Shown piece after piece: positions 3,399 through 25,300 of a DNA stretch of 64,000 nt (positions are counted from its first letter, which is position 1; each line of letters opens with the position of its first letter). Under the pieces are notes generated by a model. That model was not told the origin of the DNA. It saw nothing but the letters and a program-made list of their open reading frames with translations, and ran no database searches. The DNA is taken from contig DASUTC010000090.1 of NCBI GenBank assembly GCA_036374795.1, positions 1 to 64,000 of the forward strand. The letters run 5' to 3'. The translations under genes were made by a program, and so were the position numbers. The DNA is from Herpetosiphonaceae bacterium (GTDB lineage Bacteria > Chloroflexota > Chloroflexia > Chloroflexales > Kallotenuaceae).

Positions 3399-5495
3399 AT
3401 GAGCGGGCATCGCGAGGATAACCTGCTGAAGTACTACCTGCGGGAGCTGGCCTACCTGCGGGCGATGGGCGCTCAGTTTGCCGAGCAGCATCCGGCGGTC
3501 GCGGGACGGCTGGACCTGGGCGAGCACCAGGGCAGCGATCCGCACGTGGAGCGGCTGCTGGAGTCGTTCGCGCTGCTGACCGGGCGGATCCAGCACCAGA
3601 TCGACAGCGAGTTTCCGGAAATTCCCTCGGCGCTGCTGGAGGTGCTGTATCCGCAGCTCCAGGCGCCGATCCCATCGATGTCGATCGCGCAGTTCGAGGT
3701 CGAGCCGAGCCAGGGCCAGCTCACGACGGGCTTTACGATTGCGCCGCAGACGCCGCTCTTCGCCACGACCCACGACGGCCAGACCTGCTGGTTTCGGACG
3801 TGCTACCCGCTGACGCTGTGGCCGCTGGAAGTGATCGACGCCGCGCTGAGCCTGGCGGCTCCCGGCGGGCCGGCGCTGCGGCTGCGGCTCGCAGCGGGGC
3901 CGGGCGTCGACCTGGCGGCGCTGTCGCTGGACCGGCTGCGCTTCCATCTGCGCGGCAATCAGCAGCTAGTTGCCGGGCTGTGCGATCTGCTGTTTGGCTA
4001 CGCCGACGCCGTGTATCTGGTGCCCGCGAGCGACCGGACAATGCCCGTGGACGATCGGTATCTGAGCGCGTCGTCGCGGCTGCCGTCCGGCGCGCTCAGG
4101 CCGGTTGGCTTTGGAGCCGACGAGGCGGTGCTGCCCTATCCCGGCCACGCGCATCCGGCCTACCGTCTGCTTCAGGAGTATTTCGCGTTTCCCAAGAAGT
4201 TCCATTTCTTCGAGATCGGCGGCATCGATCTGACCACGCTCAGCATTGCTCCGGGCACGTCGCCGACCGTGTTCGACCTGGTGATCACCTGCCGGAACGA
4301 GACGCGCGCCGAGCTGGCCGGTCTTGAGCAGGTGCGCGATCTCGTGCGGGCCGAGACGTTTAGCCTGGGCTGCACGCCAGTGATCAATCTCTTTCCCCAG
4401 ACATTGGAGCCGGTGCGCCTGGATCATACCCGGACCGAATACCCGCTGATCCCGGATGTGCAGCGCCAGAGCACGATCGAGGTTCACTCGATCGAGCGGG
4501 TCGTCGCCGTCTCGGAGCGCGGCACCGAGATGAAGACACTCGCGCCGCTTTATGGGCTGGACCACACGATGCAGCGGCGGAATCAAAAGGCGTTCTGGCA
4601 TGCCCGGCGGCTGCCGTACCGGCACCAGGGTCTGCCCGGCACGGAGATGACGCTGGCCTTCACGGATCTGATGTTCAATCCGCAGGCGCCCGCCGCGCAG
4701 ACGGTCTATGTCCACGCGCTCTGTACGAACCGCAGCCTGGCGGAGCACCTGCTGCCCGGCACGCGGCTTCAGTTCGAGCAGGCCGCTCCCCTGCGGCGGA
4801 TCACCTGCCTTGACCGGCCCACGCCGCCGATCACGCCGCCGCTGCGCGGCGCGACGCTGTGGCGCCTGGTTTCGCAGCTGTCGCTCAATCATCTATCGCT
4901 GATCGATCCGGTCCAGTTCAGCGTGCCCAGGCATCATCGCGCCGATCTGAATACCCGGCAGTTTTCGCCGGAGCTGCGGGCGATCTTTCAGGATCATGGC
5001 CTGCGGCTGTCGCCCAACGTCCTGGTGAGCGATCAGGCCACTGGTGAGACGGAGACGGCCCGGATCTGGACGATCCAGGATCAGGCGCATGGCAAGACCT
5101 ACCTGATCGTCGACGAGGCGCAGCAGCTTGCGGTGACGACGAATGCCGGGGCGCTGCACGCGCTCCGCGAGATCCTGAAGCTCTACAGCGTCGCCGACGA
5201 TCCGGTCAGGCACCGGCAGATCCAGGGTATCGTCGATCTAGCCTGCCGCCGGGTAATGCAGCGGGTCGGCACCGACGGCTGGGGTGGCTTCGGGCGCGGC
5301 ATCGAGATCACGCTGACCTTCGATCAGACGCTGTACCAGCACGAGAGCGCGCTGCTGCTGGCAGCCGTGCTCAATCACTTCTTCTCGCTGTATGTCGGGG
5401 CGAATCTGTTTACCCGGCTGGTGGCGCGGCGCAAGGATAGCAAGGGGATCTGGAAACGATGGCAACCGCTGGCTGGTGGTCAGATAGTGCTGTAG
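3399..5495 (+). CDS. tssF: TssF T6SS baseplate protein
   Basis: 698 residues. Start and early motifs (LLKYYLRELAYLRAMGAQFAEQHP) and the later ESFALLTGRIQHQIDSEFPE and LLEVLYPQL are hallmark TssF sequences. TssF with TssG forms the core of each baseplate wedge and contacts the spike. The length is slightly above the usual 580-640. The last 37 bases overlap the start of tssG in another frame, the common translational-coupling arrangement for this pair. The middle of the protein contains the expected FPKKFHFFEIGG motif. Confidence 0.95.
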   Translation: MSGHREDNLLKYYLRELAYLRAMGAQFAEQHPAVAGRLDLGEHQGSDPHVERLLESFALLTGRIQHQIDSEFPEIPSALLEVLYPQLQAPIPSMSIAQFEVEPSQGQLTTGFTIAPQTPLFATTHDGQTCWFRTCYPLTLWPLEVIDAALSLAAPGGPALRLRLAAGPGVDLAALSLDRLRFHLRGNQQLVAGLCDLLFGYADAVYLVPASDRTMPVDDRYLSASSRLPSGALRPVGFGADEAVLPYPGHAHPAYRLLQEYFAFPKKFHFFEIGGIDLTTLSIAPGTSPTVFDLVITCRNETRAELAGLEQVRDLVRAETFSLGCTPVINLFPQTLEPVRLDHTRTEYPLIPDVQRQSTIEVHSIERVVAVSERGTEMKTLAPLYGLDHTMQRRNQKAFWHARRLPYRHQGLPGTEMTLAFTDLMFNPQAPAAQTVYVHALCTNRSLAEHLLPGTRLQFEQAAPLRRITCLDRPTPPITPPLRGATLWRLVSQLSLNHLSLIDPVQFSVPRHHRADLNTRQFSPELRAIFQDHGLRLSPNVLVSDQATGETETARIWTIQDQAHGKTYLIVDEAQQLAVTTNAGALHALREILKLYSVADDPVRHRQIQGIVDLACRRVMQRVGTDGWGGFGRGIEITLTFDQTLYQHESALLLAAVLNHFFSLYVGANLFTRLVARRKDSKGIWKRWQPLAGGQIVL

Positions 5496-6478
5496 CAGAG
5501 GCGCTCCACGCCGAGGGGCCGCGCTTCGATTTTTACCAGGCGGTCAGGCTGCTGGAGCTGCTGCATCCGGCGACGACGCCGGTCGGCGACGGCATCAGGC
5601 CGGATCGCGAGGCGGTGCGCTTTCAATCGACGGTGGCGCAGGCGTTTACCGGCACCGACATTGCGGCGGTGGAGCCTGCCGCCGACGAGCACGACCAGGC
5701 GCTGATGCGGGTCAACTTCCTTGGCCTGGCGGGCGCGCTGGGACCATTGCCCGCGCCATACACCCGGCTGCTGCTGACGCGGCTTGACGACGGCGATCCG
5801 GCTACGCGCGATTTTCTGGACATCTTCAATCACCGGCTGATCTCGCTGATGTACCGGGTGCGCAAGAACCATCGCGCGGGCTTTGGCGGGGAGGCGCCGG
5901 GCGACGATCGCGTGGCCGGGTATCTCTTCGCGCTGCTTGGCCTGGGGACGGATGGCCTGCGCGACCGACAGGCGATCCCGGATGTTGCGCTGCTGCGCTA
6001 TGCCGGGCTGTTCGCGCAGCAGCCCCGCTCGGCGGCGGGCCTCGCATGTCTGCTGCGCGATTACTTCAAGGTTGGCGTCGAGGTCGGCCAGTTTTGCGGT
6101 CGCTGGGTGCGGCTCGACGAGGATCAGTGGACGGCGATCGGCGAGAGCGGGCGCAACCAGGCGCTTGGGCGCGGCGCGCTGCTCGGTCAGCGGATCTACG
6201 ACGTGCAGGGCAGGCTGGAGCTACGGCTCGGCCCGCTCGATCTGCGGGAATATCTGGATTTTCTGCCGATCGGCCACGGCTTTCGCTCGCTGTCCGCCCT
6301 GGCCCGCTTCTACCTTCAGGAGACGCTCGATTTCGATGTGCGGCTGACGCTCCGATCCGCCGACGTTCCCAGGTTTCGCCTTGGCAGCGCCGAGGGGGCG
6401 CGGCTCGGCTGGACGACGTTTCTCACGACGCAGCCAGCACAGACCGCTCCGGAGCTTCGGCTGTGCACCATCGGCTGA
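5459..6478 (+). CDS. tssG: TssG T6SS baseplate protein
   Basis: 339 residues. FDFYQAVRLLELLHP near the N-terminus, VRFQSTV, and the MRVNFLGLAGALGPLPAPYTR segment are diagnostic of TssG. TssG forms a heterotrimer with two TssF copies in the baseplate wedge. The gene begins inside the 3' end of tssF (overlap 5459-5495). After its stop there is a 251-base gap before vgrG, the largest break between T6SS genes here. Confidence 0.94.
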   Translation: MATAGWWSDSAVAEALHAEGPRFDFYQAVRLLELLHPATTPVGDGIRPDREAVRFQSTVAQAFTGTDIAAVEPAADEHDQALMRVNFLGLAGALGPLPAPYTRLLLTRLDDGDPATRDFLDIFNHRLISLMYRVRKNHRAGFGGEAPGDDRVAGYLFALLGLGTDGLRDRQAIPDVALLRYAGLFAQQPRSAAGLACLLRDYFKVGVEVGQFCGRWVRLDEDQWTAIGESGRNQALGRGALLGQRIYDVQGRLELRLGPLDLREYLDFLPIGHGFRSLSALARFYLQETLDFDVRLTLRSADVPRFRLGSAEGARLGWTTFLTTQPAQTAPELRLCTIG

Positions 6479-6729: not shown

Positions 6730-8676
6730 ATGTCCTATACGCAAGCCAACTCGTATCTTTCGGTGACAACGCCGCTTGGCAAGGATACGCTGCTGCTCAG
6801 GACGATGCACGGCGCGGAGACGATCTCTGGCCTGTTTCACTACACGCTGGAGATGATCTCCGAGGACAAAAACCTGAGCTTCGATACGATCGTGGGCAAG
6901 AGCGCGACGGTCAGCATCGGCATGGCGAACGACAGCACGCGCTATATCAACGGCATTGTCGGTCGTTTCTACCAGGCCGGGAGTGACGGACTGTTCACCA
7001 CCTACTACGCCGATCTGTATCCCTGGCTGTGGCTGCTGACGCTCACCTCCGACTGTCGGATCTTTCAGGCCAAGAGCGCGCCGGAGATCATCACCGCCGT
7101 GTTTGACGAGCTGGGCTTGAGCGACTACAAAAAATCGCTGTCGAAAACCTACGCCGCCCGCGAGTACTGCGTGCAGTATCAGGAGACGGCCTTTCAGTTC
7201 GTGTCGCGGCTGATGGAGGACGAGGGCATCTCCTACTTCTTTGAGCATGCCGACGGCAGCCACACGCTCGTGCTGGCCGACGACGCCGATGCCTACGCGG
7301 GCTGTCCCGGCCTGAGCGGCGCGGTGCGCTACCAGTCGTCGCTGAGCGGCGCGACGGAGGCCGACGCGATCACGCGCTGCACGTTCGAGCGGCAGGTCAC
7401 GCCCGTCAAGTATGCCGTGGATGACTTCAACTTTGAAACGCCCACCAATGATCTGCTGTCGAGCCAGCAGAGCGGCAGCGGCAAGCTGGCCCTCTACGAG
7501 TATCCTGCCGGGTTCAGCAGCAAAGATGCCGGGAGCACCAAGGCGAAGCTGCGCCTGGGCAGCCAGCAGGTTCCCAAAACCCTGCTGCGCGGCCAGGGCT
7601 TCAGCCCGGCGCTCACGTCCGGCCATACCTTTACGCTGGTCGGCCACGATCGGGATGAGGTCAACGCCGAGTATGTCGTCTGGCGCGTCTCGCACAGCGC
7701 GACCGCCGAGAGCTACACCAACAGCTTCGAGGCGTTTCCATCGAGCGTGCCGTTCTACCCGCTGCACCAGACGCCCAGGCCGGTGATCCCCGGCACGCAG
7801 ACCGCGATCGTCGTCGGGCCGTCGGGCGAGGAGATCTTGACCGATAGCTATGGCCGCGTCAAAGTGCAGTTCCACTGGGACCGGCTGGGCAAGAACGACG
7901 AGAACAGCTCCTGCTGGATCCGTGTCGCGCAGGGCTGGTCGGGCAAAAGCTGGGGCACGATCTTTATTCCGCGCATCGGCCAGGAGGTGGTGGTCAGCTT
8001 CCTCAACGGCGATCCCGACCGTCCGCTGATCACCGGCTGCGTGTATAACGCCGAGCAGACCGTGCCGTACGCGCTGCCGGGCGCGCAGACCAAAAGCACG
8101 ATCAAAAGCAACACCACCAAAGGCGGCGGCGGCTCTAACGAGATTCGCTTCGACGACCAGAAAGACGCCGAGGAGCTGTACATGCACGCCCAGAAGGACC
8201 TGAACATCACGGTCGAGAACAATCGCGCCACGACGCTGGTCGAGGGCAGCGATACCTTGACCGTGGAAAAAGGCAATCGGACGGTTGCGGTCAAGACCGG
8301 CAACGAAACCCACAGCGTGAAGGGCACGCGCGGCCTGACGATCACCGGCGACGAGACGCACACCAACGAGGCCAATTTTACGCAGAAGGTCACGGGCAGC
8401 TTCACGCTCAAGGTCGACGGCGATCTCACGATCGATGTGACCGGCTCGGTGACGATCAAGGCCGGACAATCGCTGACCAACCAGGCCGGGCAAAACCTGA
8501 GCAACAAAGCCGATATGAACCTGAGCAATCAGGCCGGGCAAAACCTGACCAACAAGGCGGGTATGTCGCTGACTAACGAGGCCAGCGTGGGCTTGACCAA
8601 TAAAGGCGGCGCGACGCATACCGTCGAGAGCGGCGGCATTCTCACCGTCAAAGGCGCGCTCGTCAAGATGAACTAA
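6730..8676 (+). CDS. vgrG: VgrG (TssI) T6SS spike protein
   Basis: 648 residues. The gp27-like half starts near residue 1 (LLLRTMHGAETISGLFHYTLEM), followed by the EYCVQYQETAFQFVSRLMEDEGISYFFEH motif. The gp5 OB-fold region includes DSYGRVKVQFHWDR, the SCWIRVAQGWSGKSWG stretch and GQEVVVSFLNGDPDRPLITG. The C-terminal part is a beta-prism needle ending in six eight-residue repeats. VgrG trimers form the puncturing tip and carry effectors or PAAR caps. No extra enzymatic C-terminal domain is seen, so this is a structural, not an evolved, VgrG. The PAAR-like gene follows 15 bases later, as expected for a tip pair. Confidence 0.96.
   Translation: MSYTQANSYLSVTTPLGKDTLLLRTMHGAETISGLFHYTLEMISEDKNLSFDTIVGKSATVSIGMANDSTRYINGIVGRFYQAGSDGLFTTYYADLYPWLWLLTLTSDCRIFQAKSAPEIITAVFDELGLSDYKKSLSKTYAAREYCVQYQETAFQFVSRLMEDEGISYFFEHADGSHTLVLADDADAYAGCPGLSGAVRYQSSLSGATEADAITRCTFERQVTPVKYAVDDFNFETPTNDLLSSQQSGSGKLALYEYPAGFSSKDAGSTKAKLRLGSQQVPKTLLRGQGFSPALTSGHTFTLVGHDRDEVNAEYVVWRVSHSATAESYTNSFEAFPSSVPFYPLHQTPRPVIPGTQTAIVVGPSGEEILTDSYGRVKVQFHWDRLGKNDENSSCWIRVAQGWSGKSWGTIFIPRIGQEVVVSFLNGDPDRPLITGCVYNAEQTVPYALPGAQTKSTIKSNTTKGGGGSNEIRFDDQKDAEELYMHAQKDLNITVENNRATTLVEGSDTLTVEKGNRTVAVKTGNETHSVKGTRGLTITGDETHTNEANFTQKVTGSFTLKVDGDLTIDVTGSVTIKAGQSLTNQAGQNLSNKADMNLSNQAGQNLTNKAGMSLTNEASVGLTNKGGATHTVESGGILTVKGALVKMN
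8467..8610 (+). repeat. six in-frame 24-bp repeats encoding the VgrG needle end
   Basis: From residue 580 of VgrG the protein repeats an eight-residue unit six times: QSLTNQAG, QNLSNKAD, MNLSNQAG, QNLTNKAG, MSLTNEAS, VGLTNKGG. The DNA copies are 24 bp long with only a few changes, so copy number could vary by slippage. Such short repeats build the triple-stranded beta needle beneath the PAAR cap. Confidence 0.85.
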
Positions 8677-8691
8677 TGGAGGGTATCGATC

Positions 8692-9078
8692 ATGGGAATG
8701 CAGGTGTGTATGGGCGCGACGCTGCAATGTAGCTTCGGCATCGCGCCAAGCTCGCTGGTGGTGCTGCCGCAGAACGCGGTGCTGACGACGACACCGGCGG
8801 CGAATATTCTGGACAATAAGCCGTTCGTCAACGTGGTGCCGTTCGGTATGTGCCAGTCGATGGCGAATCCGGCGGTCGCAGCGGCCACCGCCGCGGCGAT
8901 GGGCGCGCTCACGCCGATGCCCTGCACGCCAATGCTCAGCGCGCCGTGGATCCCTGGTGCTCCCACGGTGTTGCTCGGCAGCCTGCCCACGCTCGACAGC
9001 AACTCGAAGCTGATCTGCTCATTTGGCGGCGTGATCCAGGTGGTGAATCCCGGCCAGGTCACGGTTCAGCTCGGCTGA
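8692..9078 (+). CDS. PAAR-like (DUF4280-type) spike tip protein
   Basis: 128 residues. The opening MGMQVCMGATLQCSFG, the VPFGMCQSMANP block with CTP downstream, and the closing SNSKLICSFGGVIQVVNPGQ are typical of DUF4280 PAAR-like proteins. Four regularly placed Cys-containing segments suggest metal binding at the cone tip, as in PAAR. It would cap the VgrG trimer encoded immediately upstream. No extra toxin domain is fused. GGAGGG lies upstream of the ATG at 8692. Confidence 0.88.
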   Translation: MGMQVCMGATLQCSFGIAPSSLVVLPQNAVLTTTPAANILDNKPFVNVVPFGMCQSMANPAVAAATAAAMGALTPMPCTPMLSAPWIPGAPTVLLGSLPTLDSNSKLICSFGGVIQVVNPGQVTVQLG

Positions 9079-9099: not shown

Positions 9100-10455
9100 A
9101 TGCCAGACGCAACCATCCAGGTCGGACGCGACACGAGCCAGCCCAGCGGCGACCAGCCCGACGGGGTGGTGCGCAGCTACGACGCGCAGCGTCGGCTGCT
9201 GCGCAGCACGATCTATCGCGATGGCCGGATCGACGGCTGGGATCTGCGCTTTGATCCTCCCGGCGAGCCGCTGTTTGCTCTTGCGCTGGACTTCCAGGCC
9301 GCGCTCGACGCGGGCGACATCAGGCGGCTACAGCCCGCATTTCGGCAGCACGGTCATGCGCTGGCCGACGATGCGCTGATCGTGGTGGATCTGGCCGACC
9401 GCGAGTGGCGGATCGTCCAGAACGAGCGGATGCTGAGCGTGCTGCGCGCCGACCACGGGCTCACGATCTATCCGGGCCGCGTCGCGTGGCGCGCGATCGT
9501 TGCCGATGGTCGGCTGATCGAAACGGCACACTACCGGGCGGGATGGCTCGATGGCGTCGTGACGAACTACGGCCCGCTCGGCCCCGCGCTGCTGCGCATC
9601 GATCTGTCTGTCTGCGCCGCGCTCGACGCCGGGGAGGTTGGCGCGCTGGCGCGGCTGCTGCCGCAGCACGGCCATCTGCTGGCCTCGGACGCGATCGTGA
9701 CCACGGTGCTGGAGGGTGATGAGTGGTTTATGGCGCAGGCCGGTCAGAGCTACACGATTCAACGCAGCGCGGATCAGCTCGTGCTGTTTCGCGGTCGCGT
9801 GATCAGCCAGAGCAGCTATCGGCGCGGGAAGCTGGACGGCACGACCGCGCTGTATGACGAGCAGGGCATGCTGGCGCAGCAGATCGGCTACCGCGACGGC
9901 CTGCTTCACGGCCCGATGACGCTCTATGCCGCTGGCGTGAAACAAACGCTGGTCACGTTTCAGCACGGCAAGAAGCACGGCCCGATGATCGCCTATGACA
10001 AGCAGGGCCGCCCCAGCATGATCAGCCACTACCACGAGGATGTGCTTGACGGCGAGCTGCGCCTCTACAAGGCGGGCAGCCTCCAGGCCGTCGCCACCTA
10101 TCGCGGCGGCGTCCAGCATGGGCCGACGATTGCCTATCATGCCAGTGGCCGGGAAAGTCTGGTGGAGGAGTATGCCGATGGCGTGCTCGACTCCGAGAGC
10201 GTGCTCTATAGCGAGACGGGCCAGGTGGTGAAAACAGCGCAGTACCGACAGGGCAAGCTCGAGGGAGCGGTGATCGAGTATTATCCTTCCGGCGCTGTTC
10301 GTACCCACGCGACCTACCACGACGATCAGCTGGACGGCATCGTCTATCTGTACGATGATCAGGGCCGCCTGAAAGAAAAGACCCACTATCGGAACGGCGA
10401 GCCGGTCGGCAAGCCCGAACGCCGCTCCTGGCGGCAGACACTCACGCAAAGGTAA
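9100..10455 (+). CDS. MORN-repeat (YwqK-like) protein of the T6SS locus
   Basis: 451 residues. From about residue 240 to 440 the protein is made of MORN-variant repeats with the pattern YxxGxLxGxxxxYxxxG, for example YRRGKLDGTTALYDEQG and YRDGLLHGPMTLY. The N-terminal half contains two diverged copies of another module: AALDAG, about ten residues, QHGHxLAxDA, then EW. Proteins of this type are often annotated as YwqK-family antitoxins or as T6SS accessory proteins. The position between the PAAR-like tip and tssK, in the same orientation with AGGAG before the ATG, suggests a cargo, adaptor or immunity role. None of these can be chosen from sequence. No signal peptide is seen. Confidence 0.7.
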   Translation: MPDATIQVGRDTSQPSGDQPDGVVRSYDAQRRLLRSTIYRDGRIDGWDLRFDPPGEPLFALALDFQAALDAGDIRRLQPAFRQHGHALADDALIVVDLADREWRIVQNERMLSVLRADHGLTIYPGRVAWRAIVADGRLIETAHYRAGWLDGVVTNYGPLGPALLRIDLSVCAALDAGEVGALARLLPQHGHLLASDAIVTTVLEGDEWFMAQAGQSYTIQRSADQLVLFRGRVISQSSYRRGKLDGTTALYDEQGMLAQQIGYRDGLLHGPMTLYAAGVKQTLVTFQHGKKHGPMIAYDKQGRPSMISHYHEDVLDGELRLYKAGSLQAVATYRGGVQHGPTIAYHASGRESLVEEYADGVLDSESVLYSETGQVVKTAQYRQGKLEGAVIEYYPSGAVRTHATYHDDQLDGIVYLYDDQGRLKEKTHYRNGEPVGKPERRSWRQTLTQR

Positions 10456-10462
10456 CGACCAT

Positions 10463-11884
10463 ATGGACGACAGCTCGCGTCGCAAGGTGATCTGGAGCGA
10501 GGGGCTGCTGATCGGGCCGCATCATTTCCAGCAGGCCGATCGCTATCACGAGCACACGCTCGATCTCCGGGTCCGCACGCTGGTCCCGTTTGGCTGGGGC
10601 GCGCTCGACCTCCAGATCGATCTGAGCACCTTAGAGCAGCGCAACGCCCTGCGGATCGAGCGGTTTCACGGCGTGCTGCCCTCCGGCGCGGTTGCGAGCA
10701 TTCCCGATGTGGATGACGTCCCCGCGACGCGGGTGATCCCGCCGGATCGGATACCGCTCTTCTCCGGGCATCTGGATGTGTATCTGGCGCTGCCGGTCGA
10801 TCGTCCGAATGGACAGAACTATCGCATGAGCGGCAGCGCGGCCAGCGCCGATACGCGCTACGTGCCGTCGTTCGTGAATCTGGTCGACGAGTGCAGCGGC
10901 GAGAATGAGCAGACGATCGTCACCGCCAAGCACCATTTCCGGCTGCTGCTCGGCGATGAGGACGATACGCAGCTCGAGCGGATCAAGATCGCGGAGCTGA
11001 TCCGGCTGCCCGATGGACGAGTCACGCTCAACCAGGAGTACGCGCCGCCGTGCCTGGTCGTTCAGGCATCGGCCACGCTCTCCGGGATGGTTCGGGAGCT
11101 TACGCGGCGGCTGAAGCTGATGATCCTCGCGGTCGCGGGCGCTCGGCAGCGCGGCGCTGGCGACACCGGCCTGGATCGGCTGGAGCTGGTATCGGTGCAG
11201 GCCAGCCTGAGCGGGGCGCTGGCAGTGCTCAATCACTTCAACCAGATTCGGCAGGTCCACCCGGAGGTGGTCTATCGGAGCCTGCTCCAGCTGGCCGGGC
11301 AGCTCCAGGTGCTACTGCCTGCGGCACAGATGCTCGATCTTCCCGCCTATGACCATGACGATCTGGTCGGCTGCTTCGGATCATTGATTCAGAGCATTGA
11401 GACGCTGCTGCATGCCGTGCCGACACCACCGCCGGGGCCGATGATCGCGATCGATCTGGAGCCTGCGCAGAGCGCGGCGGGCTATCCCGTGCTGCGCACC
11501 CGATCGCCGCTGGATGAGCGGCTGCTGGCGGCTGACTACGCGCTGTTTCTGGTCGTTGAGGTTTCCGGCGAGTATAGCGACCGCCTGCACTTCTTGAGCA
11601 AGCACCTGCCGGCAACCGTCACGATCGCCGCCTTCCATCAGATCGATCGGTATATTGAGCGGGCCTATGGCCTGCGCATCACCGCCGAGCAGCGACCGCC
11701 GGAAGCGCCGCTGCACGCGCATACCGTGTATTTTCAGCTCGAGCATACCGGCGCGGCCTGGGAGGGCATTCGAGCGGAGCGCTCGCTGGCGATTCAGATC
11801 CCGCGCGCCGTCTGGCAGGAGTTCAAACAGCTTGACGTAACGCTGATCGCGATTCACCGGCAGGCGCAGCAGCCAGCCGGCTAA
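10463..11884 (+). CDS. tssK: TssK T6SS baseplate-to-membrane connector
   Basis: 473 residues, normal for TssK. The start VIWSEGLLIGPHHFQQADRY is the classic TssK N-terminal signature, and the middle has the expected IKIAELIRL and PLLQ-like segments. TssK trimers link the TssFG wedge to the cytoplasmic parts of TssL and TssM. Here it lies directly upstream of tssL and the reduced tssM, so the docking side of the membrane complex appears to be kept. AAAGG precedes the ATG. Confidence 0.95.
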   Translation: MDDSSRRKVIWSEGLLIGPHHFQQADRYHEHTLDLRVRTLVPFGWGALDLQIDLSTLEQRNALRIERFHGVLPSGAVASIPDVDDVPATRVIPPDRIPLFSGHLDVYLALPVDRPNGQNYRMSGSAASADTRYVPSFVNLVDECSGENEQTIVTAKHHFRLLLGDEDDTQLERIKIAELIRLPDGRVTLNQEYAPPCLVVQASATLSGMVRELTRRLKLMILAVAGARQRGAGDTGLDRLELVSVQASLSGALAVLNHFNQIRQVHPEVVYRSLLQLAGQLQVLLPAAQMLDLPAYDHDDLVGCFGSLIQSIETLLHAVPTPPPGPMIAIDLEPAQSAAGYPVLRTRSPLDERLLAADYALFLVVEVSGEYSDRLHFLSKHLPATVTIAAFHQIDRYIERAYGLRITAEQRPPEAPLHAHTVYFQLEHTGAAWEGIRAERSLAIQIPRAVWQEFKQLDVTLIAIHRQAQQPAG

Positions 11885-11937
11885 GCAACGCTGTGCCACG
11901 GTCGCTCTCCGGGAGCGCGGGACGCACTAGGAGTCGT

Positions 11938-12684
11938 ATGTCCAACGTAGTGTATGCGCCGCCATCACTGGCTGCGACGCAGGGCCAGGAGCATCCGCAC
12001 GCCGCGACACAGGGCGCTCATCAGGAGGTGAGCGCCGCCCATCGCGTCGGCGCGCAGCCCGCGCCGCGCCTGGCCCAGCTCTGCGACCCAATGCTGAGCC
12101 TGATCCTCTCGCTCCAGAATCCTGAGCGTCTGGACAATGTTCCAGCGCTGTACGCCCAGCTTCAATCGCAGCACGCCGCGCTCTGCCACCAGGCGGCGCT
12201 GGCAGGCATCGACGAGCGCGACCTGCACCTGGCGACCTTTGCGCTGGTGGCGTTCGCCGACGAGACGATCGCCGAGTCCGCCTGGATCGATCGGGCGCAG
12301 TGGCCGTTTCTTCAGTACGAGTACTTCACCACGCGGCGCGCCGGAGAGCAGTTTTTTGAGCAGCTTCAGCAGATCCAGGGAAAGAAATACGATTACGCGA
12401 TCTGGAAGGACGCATCCAGGGCCGAGCTGCTCGAAGTCTACTATCTGTGTCTGCTGCTGGGCTTTCGGGGAGCGTGGGCGTTCGATCCGCCGCTGCGGGT
12501 GCAGCATGAGCTCGAGCAGATCCAGCGCCATGTGCGCGCCCGTCCTGCTGGACGGCTCGCACCGAATGTCGGGCCGCGCTCGTACCGCAACCGGGCGCAC
12601 GGCTCGGCGCACGGCTGGATGTGGCTGGCGATCCTGATCCAGATGGCGCTGATCGCCGGTCTGGTTATGATTCACGTGAAATAA
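11938..12684 (+). CDS. tssL: TssL (DotU-like) T6SS inner-membrane protein
   Basis: The ATG at 11938 is chosen because AGGAG lies 4 bases upstream; an in-frame GTG at 11893 has no such site. The 248-residue protein has the DotU helical core: FALVAFADETIAESAW, then WPFLQYEYF, GEQFFEQLQQI, and LEVYYLCLLLGFRGAW. A single C-terminal membrane helix (about the last 22 residues, WMWLAILIQMALIAGLVMI) anchors it with only a few residues outside. There is no C-terminal OmpA-like peptidoglycan-binding domain. TssL normally pairs with TssM, which starts 9 bases downstream. Confidence 0.92.
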   Translation: MSNVVYAPPSLAATQGQEHPHAATQGAHQEVSAAHRVGAQPAPRLAQLCDPMLSLILSLQNPERLDNVPALYAQLQSQHAALCHQAALAGIDERDLHLATFALVAFADETIAESAWIDRAQWPFLQYEYFTTRRAGEQFFEQLQQIQGKKYDYAIWKDASRAELLEVYYLCLLLGFRGAWAFDPPLRVQHELEQIQRHVRARPAGRLAPNVGPRSYRNRAHGSAHGWMWLAILIQMALIAGLVMIHVK

Positions 12685-12693
12685 AGGGAAGCC

Positions 12694-13683
12694 ATGAACC
12701 GAGAAGGTCTGCGCGATGACATGATCAATCTGGCGTTCTTCTGGCCGTCGATCCTTGGAGCCTGGATCATCGCCTGGCTGCGTTTTCGCAACGCCGATCA
12801 GGTCACGCCGCCGATTGTGCCGTCCCGCATCATGGCGCTCTGGATCGTGCTGGCGGTGATCCTGGGTCTGCTGAGCGTCTGCGTGCTCTGGCTGATCGTC
12901 AAGCGGGCGCGGATCGGTCGGCTGGACCCGCTGCCGTGGTATCTGGTGGTCGGGCCGCGCGGATCAGGCAAGACGGTGCTGCTCACGCAGGCGGGCGTGC
13001 GGCAGGTGGCCGCCTGGAACGATGACTCGTTTGTCGCGCACCACAGCATTATTCTCGATCAGGTGGGCGGCTATATCCTGGATGAGATCCAGCAGGCGGA
13101 CCCGAATACGCGCCGCGAATATCTGGCCGACGTGGAGGCGTTTCTGCGCGGCAAGTCGCTCAAGGGGATCATCGCCACGATCGAGGTCGACGCGGCGCTC
13201 GACGCGGCGGGCAGCGCCGCCCAGGCCCAGACGCTGCGGACGCACCTTGCCGAGATCACCCACCGCTTCGGCGTTCACCTGCCGGTCTATCTCGTGATCA
13301 CCCGCTGCGATCACCTGCCGGGCTTTCTGCCGTTCTTTCAGCACCTACCGCCCACCGATCGGGCCAACGCCTGGGGCGCGACCCTTTCGGGACAGCAGCG
13401 CGATGCGCTCACCGCGTTCGACCAGGAGTGCGCGCTGCTGCAGCGGGCGCTCGCCGATCGGCGGCTGGCGTTTCTCGATGCCCCGCATCCGGCGACCAAT
13501 CGGGCGATCTATCAGTTTCCGGCAGAGTTTGCCCTGCTCTGCGAGCGCCTGCGGAGTGCTGTTGAGACGATCTTCACCGGCTCCTCGCCGCAGGAGCGCC
13601 TGCTCTTCCGTGGCTTTTACTTTACCGGCGCGTCGCCTGCTGAGCGAGCGCTCGACGATCGCAGCGCGCGCGGGGGCGTATGA
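12694..13683 (+). CDS. tssM: TssM (IcmF-like), N-terminal membrane and GTPase part only
   Basis: 329 residues, against about 1100-1250 for a usual TssM. Two membrane helices lie at about 11-32 and 47-70. The cytoplasmic NTPase domain follows: Walker A GPRGSGKT at 87-94, a switch-like LDQVGGY near 128, and VITRCDHLPGF (family pattern TKCDLLxGF). The ending RGFYFTGASP is the normal end of the TssM GTPase domain. The frame then stops at TGA 13681-13683, overlapping the ATG of the next gene. All domains after the GTPase are absent from this ORF; part of them is in the next gene. The large domain that normally spans the periplasm and meets TssJ is not found in either. The reading frame looks intact, so this is probably a real short form rather than decay. 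Confidence 0.9.
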   Translation: MNREGLRDDMINLAFFWPSILGAWIIAWLRFRNADQVTPPIVPSRIMALWIVLAVILGLLSVCVLWLIVKRARIGRLDPLPWYLVVGPRGSGKTVLLTQAGVRQVAAWNDDSFVAHHSIILDQVGGYILDEIQQADPNTRREYLADVEAFLRGKSLKGIIATIEVDAALDAAGSAAQAQTLRTHLAEITHRFGVHLPVYLVITRCDHLPGFLPFFQHLPPTDRANAWGATLSGQQRDALTAFDQECALLQRALADRRLAFLDAPHPATNRAIYQFPAEFALLCERLRSAVETIFTGSSPQERLLFRGFYFTGASPAERALDDRSARGGV

Positions 13684-14243
13684 AGAGGTTTGACATGAGC
13701 AGCGCTGCGCGTCCAGCAGAATCGCACAGCCCGGCGAGCTATTTTAGCCACGGCCTGCTGTCAAAGATTATTCCCAGCGACCGGCACCTGGCCCGACCGA
13801 CCGATCAGGTATTGCGGCGGCGCTGGCTCAATCGAATGATCCTGGCGGAGCTTGGCTTTGTCGTCGGGGTGGTCCTGCTTCAGTTTTTCCCGGTGATCGA
13901 AACGTCGGCGACGACCCAGCCCGCGCCAACGGCGACGGTCGCCGCTGCCACCGTGACGGCGATTGCCAGCCCCGTCGCAACCGAGTCCGCGATGATCGTC
14001 GCTCCGACCGCCAGCGCCGAGCCGACGACGCTTACACCAGCGCAGCCTTCAGCCCCGGTCCCGGTTGCGCTGCCGGATACCGGGAGCGCCGCCGCGCTGG
14101 ATACCGGCTTCTACGCCGCTCCACTGCTCTGCCTTGGAGTCGGGCTTGTCGTGTGGCTGCTGGCCGGTACGCGATCGGCGCATGATTCGTCTGATGCGTC
14201 GCTGCCCGCTAACCTTCGGCGCGATGACGAAGGATTCGTCTGA
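13680..14243 (+). CDS. second TssM-derived piece: post-GTPase motif, membrane helix, Thr/Pro/Ala linker, LPDTG and a second helix
   Basis: 187 residues, starting in an ATGA overlap with the stop of the GTPase ORF. An alternative start at 13695 has a better ribosome binding site (AAGAGG). Residues 20-40 (SYFSHGLLSKIIPSDRHLARP) resemble the TssM motif after the GTPase domain (SYFLxxLFxxVIFPExxLA), and an Arg-rich stretch then leads into a membrane helix at about 51-72. This is where normal TssM crosses the membrane for the last time before its periplasmic domain. Here a low-complexity Ala/Thr/Pro segment (75-130) follows, then LPDTG (131-135), a helix (143-162) and a 25-residue polar tail. LPDTG plus helix resembles a sortase signal, but the long tail is atypical. 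I infer a split TssM whose outer domain was replaced. Confidence 0.75.
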   Translation: MKRFDMSSAARPAESHSPASYFSHGLLSKIIPSDRHLARPTDQVLRRRWLNRMILAELGFVVGVVLLQFFPVIETSATTQPAPTATVAAATVTAIASPVATESAMIVAPTASAEPTTLTPAQPSAPVPVALPDTGSAAALDTGFYAAPLLCLGVGLVVWLLAGTRSAHDSSDASLPANLRRDDEGFV

Positions 14244-15478
14244 TGCGCACATCCTTCCAGCCCCAGTGGCTGCTGCTGCTGCTGCTGCCGGTGCTCCTGA
14301 TGACGGCCTCGCTGATCAACCAGCAGCCGGGTGTGGTGCCGCGTGTGCCGACCGCGACGCCGACGAATACCGCCACGCCCACCAATACCGCCACGCCCAC
14401 CAATACCGCGACGCCCACCAATACCGCGACGCCCACCAATACGCCGACGGCGACTATCACGCCGACCGCCACGCTGACGCCGACCGCCACGCTCGTTCCC
14501 ACGGCGACGCTCGTTCCCACGGCGACCGCAACGCCGACCGCCACGCCGCGTCCGGCGGACGTGCTGAGCGGTCAGCAGCACTGGGGCGGGGCGAATCGGC
14601 GCCTGGTGCTGAGCCGCGATCTGATCGTGGCCGCCGACTCGTCACTGACGATCGATCCCGGCGTTGAGATCCGCTTTGGGCCAGGTGTTCGGCTGACGGT
14701 TCTCGGCAAGCTCTTCGCCCAGGGCAGCCAGGCAGCGCCGATTCGGATGATCGGCAGCGCTGAAGGCTGGGAGGGCGTGATGGGCTTGAGCGGCAGCATG
14801 ATCGTGCTGGATCATGTGCAGATGCGGCAGGCCGGCAGCGCAGGCGTCGCGCTGAGCAGCATGGATGGTACGCTGATCGTCCGCAGCGCGTCGGTGCAGC
14901 AGAGCGCGGGCGGGATCGTCGCGCGGGGCAGCCAGATTGAGCTGCGCAGCACCACGATCAGCGCCAATACGATCGCCGGCCCTGCCGTCAACATTCAGGC
15001 GGTGCGGCACGCGACGACCGTGCTCGTCGGCAATACGATCGGTGGGAATGAGACGCCTGCGGGTGCGCCACAACTGCTGGTCGACGTCTCCGGCGCGTCC
15101 GGGCAGCTGACCGTGGAGGGCAATAGCGTGCTTGCCAGCAGCGCGGGCGCGGGATTCGTGCTCACTACGGACCTGCCGATCCAGGGGATCATCCGCTGCA
15201 ACAGCTTTCGCAACGGCACCATCGGCCTCCAGATCGGAACGCAGCGCGATGACCCGGATGGCTTTCGCCTGCTGATCGATCAGAACTCGTTCACCGGGCA
15301 GCTTCGCTATGGCGCGACCGGGCCGCTCGCGTTCAATCTCACAAACAACTGGTGGGAGGCTGCGTCCGGTCCCACGGCTGCCGGACGCAATCCCGGCGGC
15401 GGCGGCGTGCCGGTCGGCATCAATCTGTTGTTCGAGCCCTGGCTTGCGGCGCGTCCAGGCTGTGCTCCCGGCGGCTAG
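14243..15478 (+). CDS. membrane-anchored or secreted right-handed beta-helix protein, last gene of the T6SS operon
   Basis: 411 residues. A hydrophobic N-terminal segment (about 9-25) acts as signal or anchor. Residues 37-103 are Thr/Pro-rich, with five perfect TATPTN units. From about 110 to 400 the protein has short beta-strand repeats of the pectate-lyase-like parallel beta-helix kind: LTIDPGVEIRFGPGVRLTV, then a VLGKL step, and a final NNWWEAASGP that is common in such helices. No catalytic signature is evident. Its ATG overlaps the stop of the preceding TssM-like gene by one base, so it is translationally coupled to the T6SS. It may serve as an outer scaffold in place of the missing TssM/TssJ periplasmic part; that role is a hypothesis. 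Confidence 0.75.
   Translation: MRTSFQPQWLLLLLLPVLLMTASLINQQPGVVPRVPTATPTNTATPTNTATPTNTATPTNTATPTNTPTATITPTATLTPTATLVPTATLVPTATATPTATPRPADVLSGQQHWGGANRRLVLSRDLIVAADSSLTIDPGVEIRFGPGVRLTVLGKLFAQGSQAAPIRMIGSAEGWEGVMGLSGSMIVLDHVQMRQAGSAGVALSSMDGTLIVRSASVQQSAGGIVARGSQIELRSTTISANTIAGPAVNIQAVRHATTVLVGNTIGGNETPAGAPQLLVDVSGASGQLTVEGNSVLASSAGAGFVLTTDLPIQGIIRCNSFRNGTIGLQIGTQRDDPDGFRLLIDQNSFTGQLRYGATGPLAFNLTNNWWEAASGPTAAGRNPGGGGVPVGINLLFEPWLAARPGCAPGG
14351..14440 (+). repeat. five in-frame 18-bp tandem repeats encoding TATPTN
   Basis: Codons 37-66 of the beta-helix gene repeat an 18-bp unit five times (TATPTN in protein). Copies differ only at a few third positions. The unit extends the extracytoplasmic linker, and slippage could change its length. 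Confidence 0.9.
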
Positions 15479-16915: not shown

Positions 16916-19168
16916 TCAAGAATCTTCCGCCAGAGCGTGCCCGGCAGGACCCGCCTGCGCCATGATCTTGGCAATGGGCCGGAGATCGAGCCACCACTGC
17001 TCGCGCGGTCGCCGCGCCCTGGCGTCGAGCATGTGCGGCAGATCCTCAAGCCGGTGGAACCGTGCCTCACCCTCCTGCATCCCAATGAACGCCGCCCCCG
17101 CTACGGCCTTGCCAACTTCGTCGATCAGCCAGTCAATGCAGGCCGCCGCCAGCCGTGTCGCGTGGATTCGGTCGAAGGGCGTTGGATTGCCGCCTTGCTG
17201 GAGATGGCCCAGGATGGCCTGCCCGACATCAAACAGGCTGCCGCCCTCTTCCTCAAACAGCGCGGCGATGAAGCCGGTGGTGTAGACCGGGTTGGCGGAA
17301 TCATTGCGCACGATCAGGCTGAGCCGCTTGCCCTGTTGGAAGTTCTGGATCAGATTCGCCACATCGCGCGCGAGGTCGTGCAAGGTGATCCCTTCTTCCG
17401 GCAGATAGATCCGCTCGGCGCCGGTTGCCATGCCGCTCATCAACGCCAGGTAGCCTGAGTCACGCCCCATCACCTCGACGACGTAGGTGCGGCGATGCGC
17501 CACGGCGGACTGTTTGATCTTATCGACCGCTTCCACAATGTTGTTGAGCGCCGTATCCGCCCCGATGCTCAGCTCGGAGCCGGGCAGGTCGTTGTTGATC
17601 GAGGCCGGTAAGCAGACGATCGGCAGGCGAAAGACCGGAAACGCGGCGCGCTGCCGCACCAGCTGGTAGGCGGCCTGGTAGGCCGACCAGCCGCCGATGA
17701 TTAGCAGCCCATCGATCGCATGTGCCTCGATCGTGCGGGCGATGGCGGCGAAATCATCGTCCTGCGGGATGGTCCGATTGGTTCCCAGCTCGGCCCCACC
17801 CCAGGACACCCATCCGTTGACGCTCAACCACTCTAGCTCCTGGATCTCGCCACGTATCAGACCCTCGACGCCGTTGCCGACGCCGAGCATCTGATGGCCC
17901 TGGTCGATTCCGAGTCTGACCGCCGCGCGCACCGCCGTGTTCATTCCGGGCGCCAGCGTGCCAGCGTGCATCACCGCCAGGCGAAAGCGCGGCTGCGTCT
18001 CGGTCGGTTGGTGCGGCAGCGCGCGCACGAGCGTCTGGTGGGTGCGGTAGGCCGCCTTGAAGCTGCGGCCACGCAGATCCATCGCCCGCTCATAGTCGTG
18101 CGCCGCGATCGCCGCCGCCACCGCATGCGTCTGCTCCACACAGTGCATCAGGGGCGTCCGGGTAATGCGGTTGCCGCGAATGCCGAAGACCTGCGGCTCG
18201 CTCGTCGCGCTGTCGTCCAGCAGATGCTCGACGGCAGCATAGCCGAGGATTGTGCTCAAGTTGCGATCGAAGGCGCTGGGACTACCGCCGCGCTGCACAT
18301 GACCGAGAATCGTCACGCGGGTATCGTCGCCGGTGCGCGCTTCCAATACCTGCTTGACATAGGCGCTGCTGATCGGGTTGCCGTGCCGGTCCTGCGCGCC
18401 CTCGGCCACGATCACGATCGTGTCGCGCCGACCTGCGGCACGGCCAGCCTTGAGGCGTCGACACATCGTCTCCTCCCAATCGTCCACATCCGGCGGACTC
18501 TCCGGGATCAGCACCCACTCGGCCCCCGTTGCGAGCGCCGCCATGACTGCCAGGTAGCCGCAGTGGCGGCCCATGACTTCGACGACGAAGCTTCGCTGAT
18601 GGCTGGCTGCCGTGCTGCTGATCGCGTCGATCGCGTCGGTGATGCGGTGTAGCGCCGTATCCGCGCCGATCGTCATATCGGTGCCAAACATATCGTTGTC
18701 GATCGAGCCGACCAGCCCGGCGATGCGCAGCTCGCGATGGCGCTCAGCCAGCGCCGGCGCGACGGCACCCTGCTGCATCAGCGCATCCAGGATCTGCGGC
18801 CACTCCTGGCGAAAGATGTTGGCGCCGGTAAGGCTCCCGTCGCCGCCGATCACCACAAGGCTATCGATCTCGCGCTCCAGCAAGTTGCGGACGGCGGTCA
18901 TGCGTCCCTCGGCGGTGCGAAAAGCGGCGCTCCGGGCGGTGCCAATCACGGTGCCACCCCGATGCAAGATACCGCCAACCGCGCTCCACGTCAGTTTGCG
19001 GATCCGCTCGCCCCCATCGACCATCCCCTGGTAGCCCTCGTAGATGGCGTAGACCTCCACACCACGGTTGAGCGCCGTGCGGACGACCGCACGGACCGCC
19101 GCATTCATGCCCTGCGCATCGCCCCCACTGGTCAGGACCCCCAGGCTTCGCTTACTGTTGGTTGACAT
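16916..19168 (-). CDS. tandem-fused (eukaryote-like) 6-phosphofructokinase with a degenerate second half
   Basis: The start at 19168 (MSTNSKRSLG) has GAGAGG upstream. The 750-residue protein is two fused PFK domains, twice the normal bacterial size. The N-half (about 1-395) keeps GVLTSGGDAQGMNAA, GGDGS at 108-112, SIDND at 155-159 with the catalytic Asp at 157, EVMGRHCGYLA and GHVQRGGSPSAFDR, so it should phosphorylate fructose 6-phosphate. In the C-half, GGDGS is replaced by GGWSA (about 492-496) and the catalytic motif reads SINND, with Asn525 in place of the catalytic Asp. EVMGRDSGYLA and GHLQQGGNPTPFDR remain. Loss of catalysis in the C-half with retention of sugar-phosphate motifs is the pattern of animal and fungal PFKs, where that half became an effector site. 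Allosteric control is therefore likely, but inferred. Confidence 0.93.
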   Translation of the reverse strand: MSTNSKRSLGVLTSGGDAQGMNAAVRAVVRTALNRGVEVYAIYEGYQGMVDGGERIRKLTWSAVGGILHRGGTVIGTARSAAFRTAEGRMTAVRNLLEREIDSLVVIGGDGSLTGANIFRQEWPQILDALMQQGAVAPALAERHRELRIAGLVGSIDNDMFGTDMTIGADTALHRITDAIDAISSTAASHQRSFVVEVMGRHCGYLAVMAALATGAEWVLIPESPPDVDDWEETMCRRLKAGRAAGRRDTIVIVAEGAQDRHGNPISSAYVKQVLEARTGDDTRVTILGHVQRGGSPSAFDRNLSTILGYAAVEHLLDDSATSEPQVFGIRGNRITRTPLMHCVEQTHAVAAAIAAHDYERAMDLRGRSFKAAYRTHQTLVRALPHQPTETQPRFRLAVMHAGTLAPGMNTAVRAAVRLGIDQGHQMLGVGNGVEGLIRGEIQELEWLSVNGWVSWGGAELGTNRTIPQDDDFAAIARTIEAHAIDGLLIIGGWSAYQAAYQLVRQRAAFPVFRLPIVCLPASINNDLPGSELSIGADTALNNIVEAVDKIKQSAVAHRRTYVVEVMGRDSGYLALMSGMATGAERIYLPEEGITLHDLARDVANLIQNFQQGKRLSLIVRNDSANPVYTTGFIAALFEEEGGSLFDVGQAILGHLQQGGNPTPFDRIHATRLAAACIDWLIDEVGKAVAGAAFIGMQEGEARFHRLEDLPHMLDARARRPREQWWLDLRPIAKIMAQAGPAGHALAEDS

Positions 19169-19202
19169 AATGGCTATCCTCTCGATCAGGCAGCGATCAG
19201 CG

Positions 19203-19244
19203 CTATTCTTGCGCAAACGTATGCGAATTCGCAAGTGACGGCAT
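19203..19244 (-). CDS. possible 13-residue upstream ORF before the phosphofructokinase
   Basis: On the minus strand a near-ideal ribosome binding site AAGGAGGTGA (19251-19260) lies 6 bases before an ATG at 19244. The frame codes MPSLANSHTFAQE and stops at TAG, 34 bases before the PFK start. The site is better than the one used by PFK itself, so the peptide may be translated as a leader. A 12-bp palindrome TGCGAATTCGCA (19222-19233) lies within it. No family is known to me. Confidence 0.45.
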   Translation of the reverse strand: MPSLANSHTFAQE

Positions 19245-22388: not shown

Positions 22389-25300
22389 CTACTCCTGCGT
22401 GTGAACGATCTGCACCAGGTCACTCCCGGCGAAGGCGCGACCGTCGACGAAGTAGCCGATGATGCTCACCTCGACGCTGCCGCTATACCCGGCGAGGACG
22501 CTCCCGAACGCACGACCATCAACCTTGAGCATCAGATCAGGAATCCCGTTGCCGTTGTAGTCGCCCCGCTCCATCGGGGATGGCTGCACCTCGATCGCCT
22601 TGCCGTCGGCGAAGACGCGCACCGTGGAGCCGACTACATGTGCTACATCGTCGCCGTGAGGAAGCTCGACATACAGCGTCGCGCTGCGCGGGCTTGTATT
22701 GGGCGTCTTGACGTTCCAGACGTCGGGATCGATGTCGACCGAGGCTGGAACTACCGAGCCTGTGCGTATGCGTGGCCGCGCAGGCTGCGCCATGCCTTCG
22801 CCCAGATAGTAGCTGACGTGCGGCGGCTGGTTGTAGCCGATGTTCTGCCACGCAATGCCCAGCCGGTACACCGGATCGTGCATCAGCGTTGTGAAGCGGT
22901 GCTCCGTGACGTAGGGTGTCGTGAACAACCGCAGCGCGCTGCTGTCCTCGGTTCGCCAGATCACCTCCTCGCGCCAGTCGCCCAGGATGTCGGCCTGGAG
23001 GCTGGGATTTCCCTTCGTCCCGTTGTTCGAGTACGTTCCCTCGGCGGTCAGCAGGTTAACCGTCCGGCTATTCTGGTAATCCCACTTGCCGATCGTGCCG
23101 ACGCCCGCGCCGAGTGCATCTGCATAGCTATGGTCGAGCACTTCGCGGAGCAGATCGCCGTCCCACCAGATCGCGAAGTTGGCGGGCGGAATGCTGGTGG
23201 AGAGTTTCTGGCCCTGGGCGGTGTAGAGGCCACCGACCGGACTATTCCACGCACCGCTGATCGCCCACGCCTCAGCACCGTTGTGACGCGGATCGACGTC
23301 GGCGGCCACGCCACGGCCAGTGTCCTGCCCGGTGAAGACGCCCCAGATCGTCTCGCCGGTGTCGGCGTCACGGAACTCGATCCCAGAGCGCGCATTTCGG
23401 TCCTCGTGGACCTGGAACACCTCCAGACCGGGCCGCGCAGGGTCGAGATCGCTCAGGTGCATCGCGTCGCCGTGGCCCAGGCCGGTGGTGTAGAGCGGGG
23501 TGCCGTCGTCGTCCACCGCCATCGCGCCATAGGTGATCTCATCGTGTCCATCGCCATCGACATCGGCAACGCTGAGATTATGATTGCCTTGCCCGGCGTA
23601 GGCGCTGCCTGCCACGTTGCTATCGAAGACCCACCGCTTCGTAAGCTGCCCATCGCGCCAGTCGTAGGCCGCCAGAACTGTCCGCGTGTAGTAGCCGCGC
23701 GCCATCACAAAGCTCGGTCGTTCGCCGTCGAGATACGCCACGCCCGCCAGGAAGCGGTCGACCCGGTTGCCGTAGCTGTCGCCCCAGGCGCTCACGTTCC
23801 CACGCGGCGGCTCGTAGTTCGTCGTCGCCAGCGCGCGCCCGGTCGCTCCGTCGAAGACCGTCAGATATTCCGGCCCCGACAGAATGTAGCCGCTGGCGTT
23901 GCGGTAGTCGGCTGCGGCATTCCCGATCACGGCTCCCGCTCCGTCCGTCGTGCCGTCGGCGGTCTTCGCCACCACCTCAGCCCTACCATCGCCGTCGAAA
24001 TCGTAGACCAGGAACTGCGTGTAGTGCGCGCCAGCGCGAATGTTCTTGCCGAGGCCGATCCGCCACAGCCGCGCACCTGCAAGCGTGTAAGCGTCGAGGA
24101 AGACGTCGCCGGTGTAACCTGCCTGCGAGTTATCCTTTGAGTTGGACGGGTCCCACTTGAGCACGATCTCGTACTGCCCATCGCCGTCGAGATCGCCGAC
24201 GCTGGCGTCATTCGCGCGGTAGCTGTAGGCGACACCATCCGGCGTTGTGCCGTCGGCAGGCCGCTGGAGCGGAATGTCACGGTAGTTGGTTGCCCACACG
24301 CCCACGCTCTCCGAGCTTGCCTGCTCGGTCCCGTTGACGATCGCCCGTACCGAGTAGGTCGCGCTGTCGGCTCCGGTCGCATCGAGATAGGTGGTGCTCG
24401 ACGTGATCGGCGTGGGATGTACCATCTGTCCATCGCGGTACAGGTTGAAGGCGATATTCGGCGGATCGGTACCGAGCATGCGCCAGCTCACCAGCACGCC
24501 GCCGTCGACGCGCACGGCAACCAGGCCACGGTCGAGCTGCTCCATCTGCCGCAGGGGAGTCCTGGTGATCGGCGTGCGGAGGATGTTCGATGGGCTGGAC
24601 AATCCGCCCTGGTTTACGGCGACGACGTGATAATATGCGTTCGCCGTTTTCGGCGTCGTGCTATCGGCGTAGGTCGGCTCCACGGTGGTCGCGACCTTGA
24701 CGAACGGGCCATCTGCGGCGCTCGACTGGTACACATAGTAGCGCAGCGCATCGGCAACCGCGTTCCATGCAAGCGTGATCGTGTCCTGCCGCGCCGCTTC
24801 GATGCGCAGACCTGTTGGCGCGCGTGGTGCCGGTACCGTGGTGTCTTTCACGGCGACAGTCAGCGGCTCGCTCTGGGCCGACTCGATCCCCGTGCTGCCG
24901 ACCTGCGTGACCGTATACACATAGGTCAGTCCCAGCTCGACGCTCGTATCGGTGTATGCGGTGTTGGGCGAGCTGCCGATCCGGATAAAGGCTGTCTGGC
25001 CTGCGAGCGCGCGGTAGATACGGTAGCTGGCCGCGCCGTCCACGGCATCCCAGCCGATCGTCACCGACGGCTCGGTGGTCGGGGACATTCCAACAATATG
25101 CAGGCCGGCTGGCGCGAAGGATGGAACGATCTCGATCGCGTTAACGCGACCATCCCGGCCAAAGCTGAAGTTCATCTGGCCGTCCGCCACGTTGACAATC
25201 GTAGTCAGCGCAGAGAAATTGCCGGTCGTCGACGAGATCGTGCCCCGCGCTACGCCCTCGATCGCGACGGTGGTTGCATTGGACGCGATGTGGTCGCCGG

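Follow-up and report, generated by a model that had tools for sequence, protein, structure and literature searches.

The type VI secretion system (T6SS) is regarded as a Gram-negative machine, in which an arm formed by TssM and TssJ crosses the periplasm to reach the outer membrane. Whether such a machine can be refitted to another kind of cell envelope is the question raised by a T6SS operon in a Chloroflexales genome of 7.75 Mb (373 contigs; completeness 100, contamination 4.9). The window, meaning the whole stretch of DNA that was analysed, covers the first 64 kb of contig C90, which is 92 kb long, and the operon occupies the window from the contig edge to position 15478. Its order is tssA-B-C-hcp-E-F-G-vgrG-PAAR-like-MORN-K-L, followed by tssM1, tssM2 and a gene for a beta-helix protein, with the profile matches given in brackets:

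Contig C284, upstream of tssB, reverse strand of C284: tssA (TIGR03363, 297.7 bits)
1-94, + strand: 3' end of tssB (PF05591, 146.6 bits on C284:3-374)
141-2333, + strand: tssC, large sheath subunit, 730 aa (TIGR03355, 637 bits; sheath domain 297-725)
2366-2875, + strand: hcp/tssD, tube protein (PF05638, 7.6e-31)
2882-3364, + strand: tssE, baseplate (TIGR03357, 7.6e-21)
3399-5495, + strand: tssF, baseplate (PF05947, 8.4e-195)
5459-6478, + strand: tssG, baseplate (PF06996, 7.3e-104)
6730-8676, + strand: vgrG/tssI, spike (TIGR03361, 622 bits)
8692-9078, + strand: DUF4280 PAAR-like spike tip, IglG-like (PF14107, 4.9e-34; NF041248, 1.3e-20, below cut-off)
9100-10455, + strand: MORN_2-repeat protein, 451 aa (PF07661, 1.8e-11)
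10463-11884, + strand: tssK, adaptor from baseplate to membrane complex (TIGR03353, 272 bits)
11893-12684, + strand: tssL (DotU), 263 aa (PF09850, 2.8e-30; TM 242-260)
12694-13683, + strand: tssM1, 329 aa (PF14331, 8.2e-42; TIGR03348 positions 106-367 of 1168)
13680-14243, + strand: tssM2, 187 aa (PF14331 positions 203-256, 2e-7; TIGR03348 positions 382-450)
14243-15478, + strand: beta-helix protein gene, last of the operon (PF13229, 25.1 bits against a cut-off of 25.9)

The 5' start of the operon, tssA and the beginning of tssB, lies on the reverse strand of C284. A 3-base overlap between C284 and C90 joins tssB into one unbroken frame, so no gene has been lost between the two contigs; an explanation by genes missing at the contig edge is thereby ruled out, since C284 abuts C90 within tssB. 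All core T6SS genes have open frames, and TssB/C, Hcp, TssE/F/G/K, VgrG, the PAAR-type tip and TssA are each matched by profiles, in keeping with the original prediction of a complete sheath, tube, baseplate and spike set. Upstream of tssA, C284 also encodes a 293-aa protein (L016 2106-2987, - strand) that looks DarT/DUF4433-like by eye and has no NCBIfam match. Downstream of the operon, the window holds a 772-aa protein with two tandem phosphofructokinase domains (16916-19234, - strand), together with a Family-11 rhamnogalacturonan lyase (22389-25658, - strand) and an alpha-L-rhamnosidase (54428-57337, + strand), the last two pointing to plant-polysaccharide use.

The tail resembles that of the T6SS-i type. 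The closest solved chain to TssC is 9n4v (676 bits), which places it nearer to T6SS-i sheaths than to Francisella IglB (224 bits), while an IglG-like DUF4280 PAAR protein is common to this operon and the Francisella T6SS-ii. Approximately 250 extra amino acids with KOW-like stretches (residues ~36-298) separate the N-terminal segment of TssC from its sheath domain. This N-terminal region is the ClpV-binding one in other systems, and the extra residues sit just behind it in a genome where no dedicated ClpV/TssH was found. The best ClpV candidate was rejected as ClpB, with 1290 bits to TIGR03346 versus 826 to the ClpV model, the latter under the ClpV cut-off. ClpB may serve this T6SS, as it is described to do in Francisella (PMC5481754). 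TssF carries an insertion of ~70 aa near profile position 495, between two matching segments of one open frame. Elsewhere in the genome, weak VgrG-like matches on C158 and C65 may be parts of a distinct extracellular contractile injection system (eCIS), and a 538-aa protein on C240 (L072 997-2613) combines an OmpA domain with the motif HELAHVVQQ, which by eye is DUF4157 eCIS-associated-like.

The core genes are shared with the T6SS-i of EAEC and of the Rhodobacter sp. CZR27 plasmid, and the order from tssA to tssM matches that of Rhodobacter apart from the position of tagH-tssJ. There, tagH-tssJ lies between tssG and tssK; here, vgrG, the PAAR-like gene and the MORN_2 gene take that place, the MORN_2 gene itself lying between the PAAR-like gene and tssK. 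The MORN_2 protein possibly has an immunity role or acts as an effector-associated partner.

The membrane complex is where this operon departs from the T6SS-i TssJLM, with no TssJ, no TssM periplasmic domain, a split TssM, a TssL without an OmpA domain, no dedicated ClpV found and an extra beta-helix protein. TssM1 carries TM1 and TM2 together with the larger part of the cytoplasmic NTPase-like domain, including the P-loop GPRGSGKT, and matches positions 23-195 of the 259 in IcmF-related_N (PF14331). TssM2 contributes the end of that domain, TM3, a 69-residue linker (71% T/P/A/S, containing LPDTG) and a fourth hydrophobic segment. Together the two span positions 106-450 of the 1168 in the TssM profile (TIGR03348) and, when joined, align to residues 112-459 of the 1173-aa Rhodobacter plasmid TssM at 33% identity. 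They thus carry the cytoplasmic domain and TM1-TM3 of a T6SS-i TssM, with everything beyond TM3 replaced by the linker and the fourth hydrophobic segment. The prediction had described a TssM cut to its membrane and GTPase region plus a short second frame; the profiles confirm the truncation, but the second frame is no unrelated ORF: it completes, at the C-terminal side, the cytoplasmic domain begun in TssM1 and adds TM3. The genes overlap by four bases (ATGA) between tssM1 and tssM2 and by one base (in TGATG) between tssM2 and the beta-helix gene, an arrangement of start and stop codons that resembles translationally coupled genes. The predicted structure of TssM1, built on a two-sequence alignment, is too poor for use (pLDDT 46).

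The absences extend to the genome as a whole. Across the host genome there was no match to PF06761, the TssM region past TM3, and, with the alignment ending at residue 459 of 1173, the claimed loss of the periplasmic part holds. No second IcmF-related_N locus was found elsewhere in the host genome. The TssJ profile (PF12790) had no match there either, and reached only 14.6 bits, against a cut-off of 27, in the genome of a congeneric species, G055; the possibility that a full-length tssM or a tssJ lay elsewhere in the host was thus checked, and neither was found. TssL, a DotU-family protein of 263 aa with a single C-terminal TM, lacks an OmpA or other peptidoglycan-binding domain, as had been proposed, and the sole OmpA domain of the genome lies in an unrelated protein. 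TssL, TssM1 and TssM2 most likely form a reduced inner-membrane dock.

Other systems have lost or exchanged parts of this complex in other ways. The Bacteroidota T6SS-iii has none of tssJ, tssL and tssM, and five other proteins, TssNQOPR, take their place (PMC10781749); the likeness is that another phylum, too, has exchanged the canonical complex, the difference that TssL and the cytoplasmic part of TssM are retained here. The Acinetobacter T6SS likewise has no TssJ, but its TssM keeps the large periplasmic domain (PMC10564176) that is absent here. The open-access literature yielded no Chloroflexota T6SS of this layout, which agrees with the view that no such system had been described.

Contractile injectors in cells without an outer membrane are represented by the Streptomyces system, which is eCIS-type, lies free in the cytoplasm and has no TssK, TssL or TssM. 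Like the present locus, its locus encodes a bitopic membrane protein, the adaptor CisA (PMC12237407). By analogy with this cytoplasmic system, the sheath might dock on the membrane and then fire at the producer itself, into its membrane or across it, for instance in programmed cell death. The lack of a transenvelope conduit fits this idea, as does the fact that no dedicated ClpV was found for recycling, which could mean single use. The parts, however, are T6SS-type (TssK, TssL, TssM, TssF, TssG) rather than eCIS-type, and a possible immunity protein, the MORN_2 protein, is encoded in the vgrG neighbourhood; firing on the producer itself is considered quite improbable.

The congeneric genome G055 shows whether the layout is a stable one. 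On a 9,607-base contig of that genome, the 3' part of tssK is followed by tssL, tssM1, tssM2 and the beta-helix gene, whose boundaries and overlaps agree with those of the host; the other T6SS genes were not recovered, so that the sister locus is partial. The tssL-M1-M2-beta-helix layout sought in relatives is thus present in a second species, and the identical tssM split with the same 4-base overlap in another species' assembly rules out a recent frameshift of a long gene or an assembly error. Between host and sister, protein identity is 70% for TssL, 78% for TssM1, 61% for TssM2 and 75% for the beta-helix protein. The dN/dS values of 0.14-0.33 for tssK, tssL, tssM1, tssM2 and the beta-helix gene indicate that the five tested genes are under purifying selection. 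One P-loop residue differs: GPRGSGKT in the host is GPRGSGKR in G055, where the Thr is lost, so TssM1 may not hydrolyse NTP in both species. That lost Thr, along with the missing domains and the split gene, could be read as decay, with tssM truncated and broken up in a degenerating, dead system. Against this stand the boundaries and overlap shared by two species whose proteins are 61-78% identical, the dN/dS below 0.35 in all five tested genes and the open core frames, which make a remnant very improbable.

The envelope may explain the form of the reduced dock. Omp85/BamA and LpxC models found no match in the host or in G055, although the same models do match diderm control genomes. In the Chloroflexales studied, no crucial LPS-pathway or bamA genes were reported, and cryo-tomography of Roseiflexus castenholzii showed no apparent outer membrane, whereas two further Chloroflexales possess a layer resembling an outer membrane (PMC7332563). 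The loss of the transenvelope part, namely the TssM periplasmic domain and TssJ, is probably explained by a cell envelope that lacks an LPS/Bam-type outer membrane. A T6SS rebuilt for a different envelope, as originally proposed, gains support from the missing Omp85/BamA and LpxC, from the Roseiflexus tomograms and from the recruitment of a resident protein as the last gene of the operon.

This last protein has an N-terminal TM or signal, a TP-repeat linker and a putative right-handed beta-helix domain. Homologs of the 307-residue domain occur in 30 of 31 Chloroflexales genomes (the host included), mostly as one full-length copy, and among these homolog-bearing genomes only the host and G055 have an IcmF-related_N match. 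The ancestral role of the beta-helix family was therefore not secretion, since resident copies exist in relatives without a T6SS. The resident paralog of the host, on C50, scores 29.8 bits to PF13229, compared with 25.1 (cut-off 25.9) for the T6SS copy, and crosses the membrane once, its short N-terminus being followed by a TM and then, ahead of the beta-helix, by a Pro/Thr-rich linker of ~200 residues. In its neighbourhood (L083 1342-11478), the gene is flanked by glpX-rho on one side and, on the other, by peptidoglycan-hydrolase genes: Amidase_2/Golvesin, glucosaminidase-like and M23 peptidase. The T6SS domain and the resident paralog are 50-53% identical in each genome, with 53-54% for the C50 copy of the host. 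In an iqtree phylogeny, the T6SS copies of host and sister group together (support 100), next to resident copies from their own genus and family, with a weakly supported branching point (49-79). Because the resident pair and the T6SS pair are each 74% identical between host and sister, duplication and recruitment are older than the species split. The beta-helix protein of the operon was recruited by duplication of a membrane protein that is resident in Chloroflexales. This derivation also makes contamination of the locus unlikely; a foreign contig had been considered, but the last operon gene is closest to Chloroflexales proteins, including the host's own paralog, and tetranucleotide usage falls inside the range seen for the genome.

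The part played by this protein at the dock admits two readings. It could be an accessory protein at the cell surface, a sensor or adhesin by which a neighbouring cell is detected or held, with TssL, TssM1 and TssM2 alone forming the dock. The resident copies in relatives without a T6SS are compatible with such a role, as is the Streptomyces CisA, a bitopic membrane adaptor and possible sensor (PMC12237407). A homolog from another family (G042 C4, L088 4108-9000), which carries four FHA domains and a TM as fusion partners, favours it as well, hinting at a signalling role of the resident family. The low-confidence, strand-rich model of the protein (mean pLDDT 52, from a two-sequence alignment) has generic beta-helix neighbours in Foldseek that include surface adhesins and polysaccharide lyases, all with E > 0.1 and none significant. 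An accessory role, however, leaves no component to bridge the wall, and the beta-helix gene closes the set of dock genes and overlaps tssM2 in both species; this reading is held to be rather unlikely.

The preferred reading, which we hold somewhat likelier to be right than wrong, is a T6SS-i-type system, probably transferred, with a dock of TssL and an arm-less, two-piece TssM, and with the duplicated resident beta-helix protein standing in for TssJ and for the periplasmic domain of TssM. In this scheme TssM would be made as two polypeptides from the overlapping genes, its periplasmic arm having been lost. By homology, TssK on the baseplate would dock on the cytoplasmic faces of TssL, TssM1 and TssM2, which are kept, and sheath polymerisation and contraction would then push Hcp-VgrG-PAAR across the single membrane and the wall. 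The recruited beta-helix protein, with a membrane helix, a flexible Thr/Pro linker that might reach across the wall and a predicted external beta-helix, may mark, position or open the site in the wall, or sense contact. Only ~6 residues precede its hydrophobic segment, so contact with TssL and TssM would have to run through the membrane helices or take place outside.

A further element, compatible with the preferred reading as an addition to it, would be a covalent anchor of the dock, in which a sortase links TssM2 to the wall through its tail of LPDTG, hydrophobic stretch and Arg. The LPDTG is kept in both species within a diverged linker, the host genome has four sortase-family matches, and such matches occurred in all 21 genomes searched. 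On the other hand, three of the four sortases fall under the curated class cut-offs, and no other LPxTG-type C-terminus was found in 687 kb (~9%) of the host genome. The TssM2 tail behind the hydrophobic stretch is also long for the LPxTG-hydrophobic-positive-tail pattern. Such anchoring is judged unlikely.

The system is rare among its relatives. IcmF-related_N was found in 2 of 158 genomes of the class, the host and G055, and TssF scored above cut-off in the host alone among 400 sampled genomes of the phylum. A scan of genome contigs found only the sister species, with two seed peptides that are specific to this pair and have little bearing on other phyla. Viral contigs held no relative of TssM1 or of the beta-helix protein, and plasmids and phages held none of the beta-helix domain. 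Plasmid matches to TssM1 were all below 60% identity, and the annotated ones among the matches listed are tssM genes. This rarity, taken with the similarity to proteobacterial systems, suggests that the T6SS was gained by horizontal transfer.

The layout suggests that a T6SS can be refitted to another envelope type. It is quite conceivable, if a little short of probable, that this is the first T6SS refitted to fire without a Gram-negative outer membrane, its reduced TssL/TssM dock joining a wall-spanning beta-helix protein of local origin, and perhaps a sortase-linked TssM2, in a new kind of membrane complex. A conserved and selected arm-less T6SS would reveal the indispensable part of the membrane complex, TssL and the cytoplasmic domain of TssM, and would show how a transferred machine is refitted by duplicating a local membrane protein. 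It also makes it possible to test directly if a T6SS can function when what it has to cross is one membrane and a wall.
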